A DNA stretch of 33,563 bases, from NCBI GenBank assembly GCA_001464065.1, contig LNDN01000030.1:1-33563 (forward strand). The letters are read 5' to 3'. Below are positions 6,732-24,835 of the stretch, in pieces. This DNA is from Acidobacteria bacterium Ga0077522. Lineage in GTDB: Bacteria; Acidobacteriota; Vicinamibacteria; Vicinamibacterales; Vicinamibacteraceae. The translations under genes were made by a program, and so were the position numbers. Positions within the stretch are counted from its first letter, which is position 1, and each line of letters opens with the position of its first letter. Below the pieces are notes generated by a model, which ran no database searches, was not told the DNA's origin, and saw only the letters and a list, made by a program, of their open reading frames with translations.

Positions 6732-7592
6732 ATGTCCTACGCCACCCCCCTCGAAGCCCGCATCGCCAGGAAAGTCGCGAAGGCCTCGATCGACCATCGG
6801 CTGATCGAGGCCGGCGATCGGATCATGGTCGGCTTGTCCGGCGGCAAGGACAGCTGGGCCCTGCTGCAGATCCTCGACGTCATCCGGCAGCGGGCGCCGT
6901 TTCCCTTCTCGTTCATCGCCGTCAACGTCGACTCCGGCTACAAGGACTTCAAGCACGACGTCATCCGGAAGGCCTGCGAGGACCGCGGCTGGGAGATCCG
7001 CATCGAGCACACCGAGATCGGCGAGGTGATGGACGATCTGCTCGAGGCCAACGCCACGCCCTGTTCGCTGTGCGCACGGCTGCGTCGCGGCGTGCTCTAC
7101 CGGATCGCGGACGAAGAGGGCGCGACGAAGATCGCGCTCGGCCACCACCTCGACGACTTCATCGAGACGTTGCTGCTGAACCTGTTCTTCGGCGGAGCCT
7201 TGAAGGCGATGCCGGCCCGCCTCGTGTCCGACAGCGAACGGCACGTCGTCATCCGTCCGCTGGTCTACGTGTCGGAACAGGAAGCGCTCGACTACGCACT
7301 GGCCTGCGAACTGCCCATCGTCGGCTGCTGCTGCCCGGCGTGTGGCGACCTCGGCCTGCAGCGGCAGCGCCTCAAGCGGCTGATCGGCGATCTCGACCGC
7401 GAACATCCGGGCATCAAGTCGTCGATGCTGAAGGCCATCCAGAACGTGCATCCGCGGCACCTGCTCGACCGGCGCCTGACGCCCCTGTCCGATCTCGCGC
7501 GTGATCTGGCGCCCGGCGCGGACGCGGCGACGGGCGCGCAGCCCCTGCCGCTGGTCAGGCGGCCGACGACGAACGCCTCCATCGCGGGATGA
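6732..7592 (+). CDS. ttcA: TtcA-like tRNA 2-thiocytidine synthetase (PP-loop ATPase)
   Basis: A cytosolic PP-loop ATPase that in the TtcA family thiolates cytidine 32 of tRNAs using ATP and a [4Fe-4S] cluster. The PP-loop SGGKDS is at residues 36-41. The cluster-ligand region has CSLC (Cys111 and Cys114) in the TtcA context TPCSLCARLRRG, and a second CPAC (Cys201 and Cys204) preceded by two more cysteines, which corresponds to the third ligand region of TtcA. The GHHLDD and RLVSDSERHVVIRPL motifs also match TtcA rather than TilS or TtuA. The length of 286 aa is usual. The ATG at 6732 follows the palindromic gap and gives a start typical of the family. The stop overlaps the ATG of dtd (ATGA), so the two tRNA-quality genes are coupled. 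Confidence 0.9.
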   Translation: MSYATPLEARIARKVAKASIDHRLIEAGDRIMVGLSGGKDSWALLQILDVIRQRAPFPFSFIAVNVDSGYKDFKHDVIRKACEDRGWEIRIEHTEIGEVMDDLLEANATPCSLCARLRRGVLYRIADEEGATKIALGHHLDDFIETLLLNLFFGGALKAMPARLVSDSERHVVIRPLVYVSEQEALDYALACELPIVGCCCPACGDLGLQRQRLKRLIGDLDREHPGIKSSMLKAIQNVHPRHLLDRRLTPLSDLARDLAPGADAATGAQPLPLVRRPTTNASIAG

Positions 7593-8038
7593 GAGCCGTC
7601 CTCCAGCGGGTCAGTACGGCCTCGGTGACCGTCGCGGGCGCCACCGTGGGACGCATCGACCGCGGTCTGCTGGTGCTGCTCGGCGTGACCGTGGGTGACA
7701 CCGAGGCCGACCTCACGTACATCGTGGAGCGGACCATCGGCCTGCGCGTCTTCCCCGATGCCGATGGACGGATGAACGTCGACGTGCGGGCCACCGGCGG
7801 AGCGCTGCTCGTCGTCTCCCAGTTCACGATCGCGGGCGACTGCCGCAAGGGACGGCGCCCCTCCTGGGACGGGGCGGCACGGCCCGACGACGCTCGCGTG
7901 TGGTACGAGCGCGCGCTCGACGCGTGGCGTGCGCACGGCGTGCCCGTCGAAGCCGGCGTCTTTCAGGCAGACATGCAAGTGGCACTTGTCAACGACGGGC
8001 CCGTCACCGTGCTGCTCGACAGCCGCAAGCAGTTCTGA
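7589..8038 (+). CDS. dtd: D-aminoacyl-tRNA deacylase
   Basis: Removes D-amino acids (and glycine from tRNA-Ala) mischarged on tRNA, in the cytosol as a homodimer. At 149 aa it is the standard DTD1 length and begins with the canonical MRAVLQRVSTASVTV. The active-site motif SQFTIAGDCRKGRRPSW lies at about residues 77-93. The Gly-Pro motif that faces the partner subunit (NDGPVTVLL) is near residues 134-142. The start codon overlaps the ttcA stop by four bases. A gap of 134 bases without a clear gene separates it from dapF; it holds a repeated GGTGACCGG word at 8132-8140 and 8153-8161. Confidence 0.96.
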   Translation: MRAVLQRVSTASVTVAGATVGRIDRGLLVLLGVTVGDTEADLTYIVERTIGLRVFPDADGRMNVDVRATGGALLVVSQFTIAGDCRKGRRPSWDGAARPDDARVWYERALDAWRAHGVPVEAGVFQADMQVALVNDGPVTVLLDSRKQF

Positions 8039-8172: not shown

Positions 8173-8964
8173 ATGCACTTCTGGAAAGCCCACGCGTACG
8201 GCAACGACTTCCTCTACGCCGCGTTCGCCGACGTCGTCAGTAACGACCTGGCCGACCTCGCTCGCCACATGTGTGCGCGGACGACGGGCGTCGGGGCCGA
8301 CGGCCTGATCCTCTTCGAGACCCGGCGCGGTGGCGCGCGGATGCGCCTGCACAACGCCGACGGGTCGATCGCGGAGGTCTCGGGCAACGGGGTCCGGGGC
8401 CTCGGGGCCATCCTCGCCCAGGAGCAGAATGCCGCCACGGGCACGACCTTCGTCATCGACACCGACGCCGGCGCCAAGCGGCTCGAACTCGTGTCGCGTG
8501 ACGACAAGGGACGCCCGGTGTTTCGGGCAGCGATGGGGCAGCCGGAGCGGGTGGCCCGTCAGGATGTGGCGCTCGGAGACGAGACGCTCCCGCTCGTCAC
8601 GCTGTGGATGGGCAATCCGCAGGCCGTCTGGCTCGTGGACGCGCTCGACACGCGCGAGGTGCTGCGGGTGGGCGCCGCGCTGCAGCATCACCCGGCGTTC
8701 CCCGACGCGGTGAACCTCGAGCTCGCCCGCGTGGTGTCACCGACGGAAGTCGAGATCCTCATCTACGAGCGGGGCGTCGGGCCGACGAGTTCGTCGGGGA
8801 CCGGCTCCTGCGCGGCGGCGGTGGCCGCCGCCGCCTTCGGCGGGGCCGAACGCCGGCTCGACGTGCTTGCTCCCGGTGGACGCCAGCGCGTCGAATGGCG
8901 CGACGACGGCGTGTACCTGACGGGGTGGGCCGAGGTGATCTGCGACGGGACCTGGCTGGCGTGA
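8173..8964 (+). CDS. dapF: DapF-family epimerase homologue with both catalytic Cys replaced by Ser
   Basis: Diaminopimelate epimerase converts LL- to meso-diaminopimelate for lysine and peptidoglycan synthesis, using one Cys in each half of a pseudo-symmetric fold. The 263-aa protein aligns in motif order with DapF: KAHAYGNDF at the N-terminus, HNADGS at 60-65, GNPQAV at 147-152 and YERGVGPT at 198-205. The expected catalytic Cys before GNG is Ser70 (EVSGNG), and the expected Cys before GTG is Ser208 (SSSGTG). Both are TCG codons. The non-catalytic Cys213 remains. Either this is a serine-type epimerase or isomerase variant, or it has another function. The gene overlaps the GTG of the following transporter gene, so the two are probably co-translated. 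The family call is firm; the reaction is not. Confidence 0.82.
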   Translation: MHFWKAHAYGNDFLYAAFADVVSNDLADLARHMCARTTGVGADGLILFETRRGGARMRLHNADGSIAEVSGNGVRGLGAILAQEQNAATGTTFVIDTDAGAKRLELVSRDDKGRPVFRAAMGQPERVARQDVALGDETLPLVTLWMGNPQAVWLVDALDTREVLRVGAALQHHPAFPDAVNLELARVVSPTEVEILIYERGVGPTSSSGTGSCAAAVAAAAFGGAERRLDVLAPGGRQRVEWRDDGVYLTGWAEVICDGTWLA

Positions 8965-10487
8965 GAACGCTGCACGAGGCGATCGGCGCCGTCGAGACCT
9001 ACTCCCCGGCGGAGGAGGCCTTCAACCGCCGGCGCCGAACCTGGGGGCTGTTCCTCGGCCCCCTCGTCCTCGTGCTCGTGTGGGTCGCGCCTCTGCACCT
9101 GCCGGCGCCGGCACACCGCATGGCCGCCATCCTCGCGATGGTCGTGGTCCTCTGGATCACCGAGGCCCTGCCGATGGCCGTCACCGCGCTGCTCGGGCCG
9201 GTGCTGGCCGTCATCTGTCAGGTGGCCCCGGCGCGCGCCGCCCTGGCCCCATTTGCCGACCCGATCATCTTCCTCTTCATCGGCAGCTTCATCCTGGCCG
9301 AGGCGATGTTCGTCCACGGCCTCGACCGGCGCATCGCCTTCACCGCCCTGGCCTCGCGATGGGTGGGCACCAGCGGCACCCGCATCCTCATCGTCTACGG
9401 ACTGGTGGGGACGGTGATTTCGATGTGGATGAGCAACACCGCCACCACGGCGATGATGTTTCCCATCGGCGTTTCCATCGTCGCGCAACTCCGGCGGGGG
9501 ACGATGGGGCAGGACGAGGGGCTGCGGCGGTTCGCGACGGCGATGATGCTGATCACGTCGTTCGGGGCCTCGATCGGCGGCATGGCGACGCCCGTCGGGA
9601 CGCCTCCGAACCTGATCGGGATTGGCCTGATCGAGCGCATCACCGGCACCCACATCGGCTTCTTCCGATGGATGGCCATCGGCGTGCCGCTGGTGCTGAT
9701 CCTGTTCGCGGTCCTCGCGGCGTTCTTCGCCTGGACGAGCACGCGTGGCGTGCAGGTGGGCGAGGCGAGCGCCCGCATCGTGCGCGAGGAACTGGCCCGG
9801 CTCGGGCCGATGTCGCGGGCGCAGCGCAACGTGTGCCTCGCGTTCGGCGTCACGGTGGTGCTCTGGACCTTTCCTGGAGTGCTGGCCGTGGCGGGCCTGT
9901 CCGAGGCGCCCATCGCGCGGGCCTACATGACGTCGATGCCGGAGGGGGTGGCGGCGATGCTCGGCGCCATGCTCCTGTTCGTGCTGCCGGTGCACTGGGC
10001 CGCCCGCCGCTTCACCATCACGTGGGAGGAGGCCGCCCGCATCGACTGGGGCATCGTCCTGCTGTACGGCGGTGGGCTGGCGATGGGGGACCTGGCGTTC
10101 TCGACGGGACTGGCGACCGCGATGGGGGAAGGGCTGACGGCCTACCTGCCCGGCGCCGGGCCGATGCTGCTCACCACCGTGTTCACGGGCGTCGCCATCC
10201 TGCTCTCCGAGACCACCTCGAACACCGCCTCAGCCAACATGGTCGTGCCGGTCGCCATCGCGGTGGCGACGGCCTCGGGCGTCGACCCGATGCTGCCCGC
10301 GCTCGGCGCCACGCTCGGGGCGTCGATGGGCTTCATGATGCCCATTTCCACGGCCCCGAATGCGATTGTCTACAGCAGCGGGCACGTGCCCATCAGCGCC
10401 ATGATGCGCTACGGCATCGTGCTCGACGTCGCCGGCTTCCTGACCATCGTCGGCCTGCTGGCCGTGCTGGGCCCGCTGCTGTTCTGA
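8961..10487 (+). CDS. DASS/SLC13-family sodium-coupled anion symporter
   Basis: A 508-aa inner-membrane transporter of the divalent anion:Na+ symporter family (dicarboxylates, citrate or sulfate). Two Ser-Asn-Thr signatures, which form the sodium and substrate sites in this family, are visible: MSNTATTAMMFPIG in the first half, and ETTSNTASANMVVPVAIA near the C-terminus. About a dozen hydrophobic helices are present. An N-terminal soluble stretch (EAIGAVETYSPAEEAFNRRRR) is typical of bacterial members. The GTG at 8961 overlaps the dapF-like stop as GTGA. An upstream extension would lie inside that gene and is unlikely. Substrate preference cannot be read from the sequence. Coupling to a DapF-fold enzyme could hint at an organic-acid substrate, but this is only inference. 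Confidence 0.9.
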   Translation: MRTLHEAIGAVETYSPAEEAFNRRRRTWGLFLGPLVLVLVWVAPLHLPAPAHRMAAILAMVVVLWITEALPMAVTALLGPVLAVICQVAPARAALAPFADPIIFLFIGSFILAEAMFVHGLDRRIAFTALASRWVGTSGTRILIVYGLVGTVISMWMSNTATTAMMFPIGVSIVAQLRRGTMGQDEGLRRFATAMMLITSFGASIGGMATPVGTPPNLIGIGLIERITGTHIGFFRWMAIGVPLVLILFAVLAAFFAWTSTRGVQVGEASARIVREELARLGPMSRAQRNVCLAFGVTVVLWTFPGVLAVAGLSEAPIARAYMTSMPEGVAAMLGAMLLFVLPVHWAARRFTITWEEAARIDWGIVLLYGGGLAMGDLAFSTGLATAMGEGLTAYLPGAGPMLLTTVFTGVAILLSETTSNTASANMVVPVAIAVATASGVDPMLPALGATLGASMGFMMPISTAPNAIVYSSGHVPISAMMRYGIVLDVAGFLTIVGLLAVLGPLLF

Positions 10488-21191: not shown

Positions 21192-22562
21192 GTGAACGCC
21201 TCCGCGCCGACGACGCCGGGTCTCTCGAGGACGCTGGGGACGTTCCAGCTCTGGGGCATCGCCGTGGGACTCGTCATCTCCGGCGAGTACTTCGGCTGGA
21301 GCTACGGGTGGGCGTCCGCCGGGACGCTGGGCTTCCTCGTGTCGTCGGCGTTCGTGGCGCTGATGTACGGCACGTTCATCTTCAGTTTCACCGAGCTGAC
21401 GACGGCCATCCCGCATGCGGGCGGGCCGTTCGAGTACAGCCGCCGTGCGTTCGGGCCGGTGGGCGGCGTGCTGGCCGGCATGGCCACCCTGATCGAGTTC
21501 CTGTTCGCGCCGCCGGCGATTGCCCTGGCCATCGGCGCGTACATGCATGTGCAGTACGACTGGCTAGAGCCGCGCTGGGGGGCGGTGGGCGCCTACCTGG
21601 TGTTCATGACGCTGAACATCGTCGGCATGCACATCGCCGCCAGCGTCGAGCTGGTCGTGACCCTGGTCGCCATCTTCGAACTGCTCGTCTTCATGGGGGT
21701 GGTGGCGCCGGGCTTCTCGCTGGCGAACTTCGTCGACGGCGGCTGGGCCGGTGCCGACACGTTCTCGCTCGCGAGCCTCGGCGGCATCGTCGCCGCGCTG
21801 CCGTTCGCGATCTGGTTCTTCCTGGCGATCGAGGGCGTGGCCATGGCCGCCGAGGAAGTGCGGGATCCACAGCGATCCATCCCGCGCGCCTACATCGGCG
21901 GCATCGTCACGCTGATCGTGCTGGCAGTGGGCGTGATGATCGCCGCGGGTGGCGTCGGTGACTGGCGGGCGCTCTCGAACATCAACGACCCGCTGCCCCA
22001 GGCGATGAAGCGGGTCGTGGGCGAGGACAGCGGCTGGCTGCACATGTTGCTCTGGCTGGGCCTCTTCGGGCTGGTCGCCTCCTTCCACGGCATCATCATC
22101 GGCTACTCACGACAGATGTTCGCGCTGGCGCGGGCCGGGTACCTGCCGCGCGTGCTGGCACGCGTGCATCCCCGCTTCCATACGCCCCACGTGGCGATCC
22201 TGGCCGGCGGCGTCGTCGGCCTCGCCGCCATCTTCAGTGATGGGCTCGTCCAGATCGCCGGCCAGACTCTGACGGCCACCATCGTCACGATGTCCGTCTT
22301 CGGGGCCATCGTGATGTACATCCTCAGCATGGCCAGCCTGTTCCGGTTGCGGCAGGTCGAGCCCGCGATGGTGCGTCCCTTCATGGCGCCGGCCTACCCC
22401 TGGTTCCCGGCCTTCGCCCTCGCCGCCGCCGTGCTGTGTCTGGTCACGATGGTGTACTTCAACCCGGTCGTGGCGTCGTGGTTCTTCGGGGGGATGGGGG
22501 CGGGACTCGTCTGGTTCCTGCTGGTGCGCGGCCCGCGCGCGACCGCGACGGACGGCCACTGA
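21192..22562 (+). CDS. eat: Ethanolamine permease, APC superfamily
   Basis: A 456-aa inner-membrane transporter of the amino acid-polyamine-organocation superfamily. About twelve hydrophobic helices are present. The opening LGTFQLWGIAVGLVISGEYFGWSYGW is characteristic of the Eat ethanolamine permease group, and PHAGGPFEYSRRAFGP follows in the first loop. Substrate assignment is strengthened by context: eutB begins ten bases after the stop and eutC overlaps eutB, so uptake and deamination of ethanolamine are encoded together. The GTG at 21192 is the first start after the epimerase gene. No riboswitch can fit in the 12-base gap before it. Confidence 0.92.
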   Translation: MNASAPTTPGLSRTLGTFQLWGIAVGLVISGEYFGWSYGWASAGTLGFLVSSAFVALMYGTFIFSFTELTTAIPHAGGPFEYSRRAFGPVGGVLAGMATLIEFLFAPPAIALAIGAYMHVQYDWLEPRWGAVGAYLVFMTLNIVGMHIAASVELVVTLVAIFELLVFMGVVAPGFSLANFVDGGWAGADTFSLASLGGIVAALPFAIWFFLAIEGVAMAAEEVRDPQRSIPRAYIGGIVTLIVLAVGVMIAAGGVGDWRALSNINDPLPQAMKRVVGEDSGWLHMLLWLGLFGLVASFHGIIIGYSRQMFALARAGYLPRVLARVHPRFHTPHVAILAGGVVGLAAIFSDGLVQIAGQTLTATIVTMSVFGAIVMYILSMASLFRLRQVEPAMVRPFMAPAYPWFPAFALAAAVLCLVTMVYFNPVVASWFFGGMGAGLVWFLLVRGPRATATDGH

Positions 22563-22572
22563 GGCGGCATCC

Positions 22573-24039
22573 ATGGCCAGCTACAGTCACACGATCGACG
22601 GCACGCGCCACGTGTTCGACGACCTCCGCACGCTGCTCGCGCGCGCCACGCCCGAGCGGTCCGGCGATCGACTGGCTGGCGTGGCGGCGGCCTCGGCGGA
22701 ACAGCGGGCGGCCGCGCAGATGGCCCTCGCCGACGTGCCGCTGCGGCAGTTCCTCGACGAGGCGGTGATCCCGTACGAGCGCGACGACGTGACGCGACTC
22801 ATCGTCGACACGCACGATCGCGAGGCGTTCGCGCCCATCGCGCACCTGACGGTCGGCAGCTTCCGCGAGTGGCTGCTCTCCGACGAGGTCGATGGGGAGG
22901 GGCTCGCGCGCGTCTGTGCCGGCATCACGCCGGAGATGGCGGCCGCCGTTGCCAAGATCATGCGGGCGCAGGACCTGGTGCTGGCGGCGCGCAAGGTGCG
23001 GGTCGTGACGCGCTTCCGCACCACCCTCGGGCTCGAGGGCCGGATGGCCACCCGGTTGCAGCCCAACCATCCGACCGATGACCTGGCCGGCATCGCGGCC
23101 AGTGTCCTCGACGGCCTGCTCTACGGCAGTGGCGATGCGGTGATCGGCATCAATCCGGCGCTGGACAACGTGGCACAGGTAGTGCGCCTGCTCGAGATGC
23201 TCGACGCGGTCATCCGCCGGTACGACGTGCCGACGCAGGCGTGTGTGCTGACGCATGTCACCAACACGCTGCAGGCCATCGAACGCGGCGCCCCGGTGGA
23301 CCTGGTCTTCCAGTCGATTGGCGGCACCCAGGGCACCAACGAGAGCTTCGGCGTCTCGCTCGCCCTCCTGCGCGAGGCCCACGACGCGGCACGGTCGCTG
23401 CGTCGCGGAGCCACGTTCGCCGACGGGCGCGTCGGCGACCACGTCATGTACTTCGAGACGGGACAGGGCAGTGCGCTGTCGGCCAACGCGAGCCACGGCT
23501 GCGATCAGCAGACGCTGGAGGCGCGCGCCTACGCCGTCGCGCGCCACTTCGCGCCGCTGCTCGTCAACTCGGTGGTCGGCTTCATCGGCCCCGAATATCT
23601 GTACGACGGCAAGCAGATCACGCGCGCCGGCCTCGAAGACCACTTCTGCGGCAAGCTGCTCGGCCTGCCCATGGGCATGGACATCTGCTACACCAACCAC
23701 GCCAATGCCGACGGCGACGACATGGACGTCCTGCTGACCGTCCTCGGGGCCGCCGGCTGTTCGTTCATCATGGGCGTGCCGGGTGCCGACGATGTGATGC
23801 TCAACTACCAGAGCACGTCGTTCCATGACGCGCTGTACGTGCGGCGCGTGCTCGGCTTGCGGCCGGCGCCGGAGTTCGAAGCCTGGTTGGAGCGCATGGC
23901 CATCTTCGCGCCGGGCGAGCGCGCACGCCTGATCGAGCACGCGGCCGGCGTGCCGCCGGCGTTCGCGCGCACGCTGCACGCCGCCGCGCCAGAGTCAGGG
24001 ACAGCCGCGCCGGCGGTGAGGCCGCCTCATGCGTCCTGA
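22573..24039 (+). CDS. eutB: Ethanolamine ammonia-lyase, large subunit
   Basis: Catalytic subunit of the adenosylcobalamin-dependent lyase that splits ethanolamine into acetaldehyde and ammonia. At 488 aa it is near the usual 450-465, with an N-terminal MASYSHTIDGTRHVFDDLRTLLARATPERSGD typical of the family. TIM-barrel active-site segments are visible: RLQPNHPTDD, FQSIGGTQGTNESFGVSL, YFETGQGSALSANASHGCDQQTLEAR, and MGMDICYTNHANADGDDMD with GVPGADDVMLNYQSTSFHD. The C-terminal 30 residues are an extra Ala/Pro-rich tail that overlaps the start of eutC by 11 bases. It works with EutC as an (alpha-beta) hexameric complex. Cobalamin or its uptake is needed, but no cobalamin genes or EutA reactivase are in this window. 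Confidence 0.97.
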   Translation: MASYSHTIDGTRHVFDDLRTLLARATPERSGDRLAGVAAASAEQRAAAQMALADVPLRQFLDEAVIPYERDDVTRLIVDTHDREAFAPIAHLTVGSFREWLLSDEVDGEGLARVCAGITPEMAAAVAKIMRAQDLVLAARKVRVVTRFRTTLGLEGRMATRLQPNHPTDDLAGIAASVLDGLLYGSGDAVIGINPALDNVAQVVRLLEMLDAVIRRYDVPTQACVLTHVTNTLQAIERGAPVDLVFQSIGGTQGTNESFGVSLALLREAHDAARSLRRGATFADGRVGDHVMYFETGQGSALSANASHGCDQQTLEARAYAVARHFAPLLVNSVVGFIGPEYLYDGKQITRAGLEDHFCGKLLGLPMGMDICYTNHANADGDDMDVLLTVLGAAGCSFIMGVPGADDVMLNYQSTSFHDALYVRRVLGLRPAPEFEAWLERMAIFAPGERARLIEHAAGVPPAFARTLHAAAPESGTAAPAVRPPHAS

Positions 24040-24835
24040 GATCGTGATCCCGAACCCGTGGAGTCGCCTGCGGCAGTTCACGCCCGCCCATGTCGGCCTG
24101 GGACGGGCGGGCATCAGTGTTCCCACGTCCGTACACCTGGCGTTCCAGGTGGCCCATGCGCGTGCGAGGGACGCCGTGCACGAGGCGCTCGACGTGTCGC
24201 AGGTCCGCGCCGGGGTCGCCACGCTCGGGCTCGACAGCCTGGCGCTGCGGAGCGCCGCCGAGGATCGCGCGACCTACCTGCAGCGGCCCGACCTCGGTCG
24301 GCAACTCGATGTGGCGTCGCAGCGGGCGCTCGATACCCTTGGCTTGCCGTACCGGGCCGATCGGTTCGACCTGGCGTTCGCGCTGGTCGACGGGCTGTCG
24401 CCGCGAGCCATCCATCGCCACGCCATCCCGCTGCTGGAGCAGGTCCTCGCCGGGCTGCGCGGCAGCCCGCAGCCCTGGGACGTCGCCCCGGTTGCCATCG
24501 TCCAGCAGGGGCGCGTGGCGATCGGTGACGAGATCGGGGCGGCGCTCTGTGCGCAGATGGTCGTGGTGCTGATTGGCGAACGTCCAGGCCTCAGTTCTCC
24601 GGACAGCCTCGGCGCGTATCTGACCTGGGCCCCCGGCGTGGGACGGACCGACGCGGAGCGCAACTGCCTGTCGAACATTCGCCCGGAGGGCATGGCGTAT
24701 GCGGACGCCGCCGCCCGCCTCGTGGCCCTGCTGCACGAGTCACGCCGACGGCAGGTGTCCGGTGTGCCCCTCAAGGACGAACGCGAGGCCCTGCCGGCGC
24801 GGCCGACTTCCCGCAACGTCCTGCTTGCGCCATGA
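24029..24835 (+). CDS. eutC: Ethanolamine ammonia-lyase, small subunit
   Basis: Partner of EutB that completes the adenosylcobalamin-binding site; 268 aa, the usual length. Recognisable segments are FTPAHVGLGRAGISVPTSVHLAFQVAHARARDAVH at the N-terminus, LQRPDLGRQLD, DLAFALVDGLSPRAIHRHA, IGDEIGAALCAQMVVVLIGERPGLSSPDSLGAYLTW, and ERNCLSNIRPEGMAYADAA at the C-terminus. The ATG at 24029 overlaps the eutB stop by 11 bases, so the subunits are translationally coupled. A 321-base non-coding stretch follows. A short eat-eutB-eutC set of this kind supports nitrogen acquisition from ethanolamine in species without microcompartments. Confidence 0.96.
   Translation: MRPEIVIPNPWSRLRQFTPAHVGLGRAGISVPTSVHLAFQVAHARARDAVHEALDVSQVRAGVATLGLDSLALRSAAEDRATYLQRPDLGRQLDVASQRALDTLGLPYRADRFDLAFALVDGLSPRAIHRHAIPLLEQVLAGLRGSPQPWDVAPVAIVQQGRVAIGDEIGAALCAQMVVVLIGERPGLSSPDSLGAYLTWAPGVGRTDAERNCLSNIRPEGMAYADAAARLVALLHESRRRQVSGVPLKDEREALPARPTSRNVLLAP

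Follow-up and report, generated by a model that had tools for sequence, protein, structure and literature searches.

The window, the whole 33,563-nucleotide stretch of contig LNDN01000030.1 that was analysed, comes from Acidobacteria bacterium Ga0077522. It carries a dapF homologue flanked upstream by dtd and downstream by a gene for a DASS family anion symporter, with which it overlaps by four bases (GTGA, 8961-8964). Coordinates are given in Table 1. Elsewhere in the window, positions 21192-24835 encode an amino acid permease followed by EutB and EutC of ethanolamine ammonia-lyase.

Table 1. Features of the dapF locus and their positions in the window
Feature	Position	Strand	Basis or remark
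dtd, D-aminoacyl-tRNA deacylase, conserved housekeeping neighbour	7589..8038	+	TIGR00256 165.2 bits; synteny
dapF, Ser/Ser form, 263 aa	8173..8964	+	TIGR00652, PF01678, model pLDDT 96.7
Asn61, DAP recognition (C. glutamicum Asn74)	8353..8355	+	alignment; PMC5296763
Ser70 codon TCG	8380..8382	+	aligns with catalytic Cys73 of H. influenzae and Cys83 of C. glutamicum (first site)
Glu199-Arg200, DAP recognition pair (C. glutamicum Glu212-Arg213)	8767..8772	+	106/106 conserved; PMC5296763
Ser208 codon TCG	8794..8796	+	aligns with catalytic Cys217 of H. influenzae and Cys221 of C. glutamicum (second site)
DASS family anion symporter	8961..10487	+	TIGR00785 280.6 bits; probably outside dapF function

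DapF is the textbook two-cysteine acid/base enzyme of cell wall and lysine synthesis and an antibacterial target. The window protein scored 189 bits against the DapF equivalog model TIGR00652 of NCBIfam (cut-off 114.65). In a Pfam scan, DAP_epimerase (PF01678) matched both halves of the protein and was the sole family matched; the same scan gave no match to the proline racemase superfamily (PF05544) or to a PhzF profile. The AlphaFold model (pLDDT 96.7) has the two-domain DapF fold, and comparison with 9mro gave a Z of 35.6 and an rmsd of 2.0 over 254 residues. The nearest structures were inhibitor-bound DapFs, cyanobacterial and from Arabidopsis (Z 35.6 and 35.3), with PhzF structures at lower Z (about 24-26).

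Serines at the catalytic cysteine positions

The HNADGS, YERGVGPT and GTG landmarks of DapF were all found in the window protein. The first-pass annotation had placed Ser70 and Ser208 at the sites of the two catalytic cysteines. The TCG codons and the alignment agree with this: among 137 aligned sequences, the two serines occupy the same columns as the Cys/Cys pair of 23 other DapFs. In the predicted model each serine directly precedes the N-terminus of a helix (residues 71-84 and 209-223), and the catalytic cysteines of known DapFs hold the equivalent position before helix N-termini (PMC12039745). The PROSITE DapF signature PDOC01029, in the form quoted in PMC8225329, requires Cys. Because the window protein has Ser/Ser and does not fit this Cys/Cys signature, we regard it as a DapF variant and not as an ordinary DapF.

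Both serines were kept in all 106 Ser-class homologues, nearly all of them from Acidobacteriota, and neither Ala, Gly nor Thr was seen at either position among these sequences. All four TCN codons were used at both sites, four sequences had AGC at site 1, and dN/dS relative to congeners was about 0.09-0.24. Judged from these sequences, the Ser/Ser pair is old and under selection, not decaying; the earlier view that the cysteines were lost by selection is thus upheld by the fixation of both serines over a large clade and by purifying selection. A sequencing error was ruled out by the conservation of the serines in over 100 independent sequences. Misalignment, with the true cysteines elsewhere, was also ruled out: Cys34, which is shared with 18 of the 23 Cys/Cys DapFs, and Cys213, which is not invariant, both lie outside the catalytic columns. 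No newly conserved helper residue near the serines was identified in the alignment.

In the complex of C. glutamicum DapF with meso-DAP, the residues Asn15, Asn74, Asn85, Asn159, Asn194, Glu212, Arg213 and Thr223 are needed, and alanine mutants at the DAP-contact residues nearly abolished activity (PMC5296763). They align with Asn11, Asn61, Asn72, Asn148, Asn181, Glu199, Arg200 and Thr210 of the window protein, in which the contact set is therefore complete. Across the Ser/Ser class, Asn11, Asp63, Asn148, Asn181, Glu199, Arg200 and Gly209 were invariant (106/106), Asn61 and Asn72 were each kept in 105 of 106 sequences, with one unreadable residue (X) each, and position 210 was Thr in 86 and Ser in 20. 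Position 44 of the window protein is Gly, as at the equivalent position in Anabaena and Arabidopsis DapF (PMC12039745). The retention of every DAP-contacting residue argues against another isomerase of the fold, an option raised by the first-pass annotation. One Ser/Ser DapF (L210, G191:C4) reads SGDG at its GNG motif and has lost the contact Asn.

The DAP pathway and the gene neighbourhood

In the organism's own genome, asd, lysC, dapB, dapA, dapD and an M20 dapE-like gene lie consecutively on one contig. Asd, LysC, DapA and DapD scored above their family cut-offs. DapB scored 117.1 against a cut-off of 122, DapE matched M20 models only, below cut-off, and no DapC transaminase was assigned in this genome; these sub-cut-off scores and the unassigned DapC count against reading the window protein as a DAP epimerase. 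LysA scored 431.7 bits, and MurE carries the DNPR motif, a mark of DAP-adding MurE enzymes.

No meso-DAP dehydrogenase (Ddh) was found above cut-off among 49 genomes. The organism's own genome, which is 100% complete, contained no proline racemase and no second DapF above the PF01678 cut-off, Cys/Cys forms included, and the Ser/Ser gene is its sole DapF. The LL-DAP to meso-DAP step therefore has one candidate in a search that covered Ddh, the proline racemase fold and a second DapF. With no Cys/Cys DapF to be a paralogue of, the earlier suggestion of a non-catalytic paralogue is disfavoured. A weak match considered as a second DapF (C373) proved to be a spurious frame antisense to a peptidase-like ORF. 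The DapL route was rejected on weak aminotransferase matches at most and on the DapD/DapE type of the genome's cluster. No usable data on the biochemistry, meso-DAP or cell walls of these bacteria turned up in the literature searched.

The first-pass annotation had also described the gene as coupled to the symporter, with a substrate other than DAP as a possible consequence. The GTGA overlap is real, but the linkage is not conserved: among about 50 Vicinamibacterales loci the symporter was found in 11, RadC in 30, Dtd in 20 and TtcA (named from reading the sequence, without a family search) in 14, all counts being lower bounds with many flanks of about 1-1.5 kb. In this housekeeping region the symporter behaves as a variable insert, a poor reason to propose another substrate. 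Other neighbours are found elsewhere. The products of ldcA and mpl act on DAP-containing muropeptides, and in two f24 genomes, from another class (L165/L122 and L129), a Ser/Ser dapF is followed by adjoining ldcA and mpl. In G458, the gene 3' of the Ser/Ser dapF is DapE-like (M20) and 39% identical to DapE of the organism's own genome. The non-DAP substrate thus loses ground on its neighbourhood evidence. The M20 neighbours at L069 and L125, considered as DapE, resemble glutamate carboxypeptidases; only the neighbour at L096 is DapE-like.

Distribution and evolution of the Ser/Ser form

The first related loci fell into Ser/Ser forms from Acidobacteriota, Ser/Cys forms from Acidimicrobiia and other Actinomycetota, and Cys/Cys forms from Bacillota and Proteobacteria. 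The homologue in G001 is 84% identical to the window protein. A homologue was present in 105 of 120 relatives searched, nearly always in single copy, and 376 of 396 Acidobacteriota genomes had a DapF match, mostly one per genome. The aligned sequences comprised 106 Ser/Ser, 23 Cys/Cys, 7 Ser/Cys and 1 Cys/Ser forms. At the DNA level, a site 1 pattern with Ser codons (TCN) matched 202 of the 396 genomes (113 of 210 genera) and the Cys pattern 69, an approximate split that includes a few false matches (G158:C51 and G330:C32, for example, are not DapF) and leaves about 125 genomes with neither pattern. Most of the genomes with the Ser form have no other DapF.

In a tree built without the two catalytic columns, 103 of the Ser/Ser sequences formed a single clade (SH-aLRT 96). 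Three others (L096, L087 and L108) clustered with Ser/Cys sequences of Actinomycetota with a support of 100. At least four state changes are required over this tree, which is a quick one with some long branches, so that the number of origins is unsure.

Several sequences depart from the common pattern. The DapF-like proteins L015, L016 and L019-L023, from Acidimicrobiia and other Actinomycetota, cluster with the three Ser/Ser sequences just named; they share the SGNG Ser at site 1 and the contacts with the window protein and differ in having Cys at site 2. At L015, DapD- and DapE-like genes lie nearby. Two Acidobacteriota DapFs of the ERGVE type, L111 and L222, show the reverse mix, in which Cys occupies site 1 and Ser site 2; L222 is additional to the single Cys/Ser form counted above. 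The G461 genome carries two DapFs, one Ser/Ser and one Cys/Cys (L208, L109). Five Acidobacteriota sequences (L089, L112, L117, L123 and L136) have SGTC for SGTG, which places a new Cys three residues past the Ser at the catalytic position.

Discussion

The fold, the family assignment, the fixed serines, the kept contacts, the single copy, the near-whole pathway and the lack of a known alternative enzyme lead us to predict that the window protein converts LL-DAP to meso-DAP as the organism's DAP epimerase, probably with Ser70 and Ser208 as its acid/base pair. The serine-type epimerase that the first-pass annotation had listed among its options is supported on the same grounds. The Ser/Ser protein shares fold, length, DAP contacts, the helix N-terminal catalytic position and pathway context with the Cys/Cys DapFs of TIGR00652 (H. 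influenzae, C. glutamicum, Anabaena and A. thaliana), and differs from them in its catalytic pair and its misfit to PDOC01029. Within the literature searched, which lay outside subscription journals, we came across no account of a Ser/Ser DapF; the DapF papers all give Cys/Cys as the catalytic pair. The best reading of the sequence data is that Ser/Ser DapF represents a new form of DapF and a working DAP epimerase.

In known DapFs, a thiolate takes the alpha proton, with a pKa of about 29, and a thiol on the opposite face gives one; helix dipoles lower the thiol pKa, and the thiol-thiolate pair is considered essential. In the window protein, the general acid/base role of Cys/Cys would pass to Ser70 and Ser208, which lie at the N-terminal ends of the two central helices, the serines themselves being proton donor and acceptor. 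One serine may be deprotonated, perhaps transiently, as an alkoxide while the other is protonated. In a closed, dry pocket, backbone NH groups and the helix dipole could stabilise the alkoxide, and the resulting rate would be enough for the cell's needs. On balance, we lean towards a cofactor-free serine pair that deprotonates and reprotonates an amino acid alpha carbon and thereby supports wall and lysine synthesis in much of the phylum; this would be the first Ser/Ser cofactor-independent epimerase.

A hydroxyl, with a pKa of about 16, is a far poorer acid/base than a thiol. Cys-to-Ser mutants of PddB retained less than 0.1% activity, with a similar outcome for M. tuberculosis DapF as cited in the same paper (PMC8225329), and the turnover of HisR was greatly reduced by C67S and C209S (PMC11602996). 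Both the weak acidity of the hydroxyl and these engineered losses count against serine catalysis. Among 4-hydroxyproline epimerases and trans-3-hydroxyproline dehydratases, which belong to the same fold class and differ from the window protein in substrate, family, low identity and a second residue that is Cys or Thr, Ser naturally replaces a catalytic Cys (PMC4113996). An example with Ser93/Cys is a functional 4-hydroxyproline epimerase, and in the proline racemase superfamily natural Ser/Cys proteins are true epimerases and Ser/Thr proteins dehydratases (PMC4113996). Evolution has therefore made serine work in this fold.

The near inactivity of the engineered mutants would also fit a protein that binds DAP but is dead or nearly so, with a regulatory or scaffold role such as that suggested by the DapF-RppH complex in the PDB, in which E. 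coli DapF binds RppH. Meso-DAP would then come from some other enzyme that has escaped recognition, such as a PLP racemase of broad specificity. We consider this unlikely, since it leaves the invariance of every substrate contact unexplained and, of the known alternatives searched for in the genome (Ddh, the proline racemase fold and a second DapF), none was found. In another reading the protein is an active DAP epimerase, but at least one of the two serines has no part as acid/base, and a bound water, substrate groups or another side chain would serve as the base. Serine is an intrinsically weak base and no activating residue was identified, but a spectator would tolerate the Ala, Gly or Thr that are never seen, and no other residue is newly invariant as a candidate base; this reading appears very improbable.

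Slightly less credence still goes to a DapF-fold isomerase or lyase with a different substrate, for which the symporter would be the transport partner. The Ser/Thr dehydratases of the proline racemase superfamily (PMC4113996) and the gene overlap are in keeping with it, as is the presence among the nearest structures of O-ureidoserine racemase (PDB 7vdy), a near DapF relative in sequence and structure that has a Cys pair and acts on O-ureidoserine in D-cycloserine biosynthesis (PMC8142540). Against it, the set of DAP recognition residues is complete, the DASS gene is found in only 11 loci, and the genome would be left without a DAP epimerase despite LysA, a DNPR-type MurE and the dap cluster.

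Either serine does DapF chemistry, then, or these bacteria fill the step by unrecognised means. If the predicted serine-based DAP epimerase is correct, the thiol is dispensable, and the Ser/Ser form gives a naturally occurring counterpart for studying the removal of a proton with a pKa of about 29. Aziridine inhibitors attack the thiol pair of DapF, and the C. glutamicum enzyme reportedly has a disulfide redox switch; a Ser/Ser DapF would be insensitive to thiol oxidation, to thiol-directed inhibitors and to a switch of that type. Should the protein prove inactive, meso-DAP in much of Acidobacteriota would come from an unrecognised enzyme.
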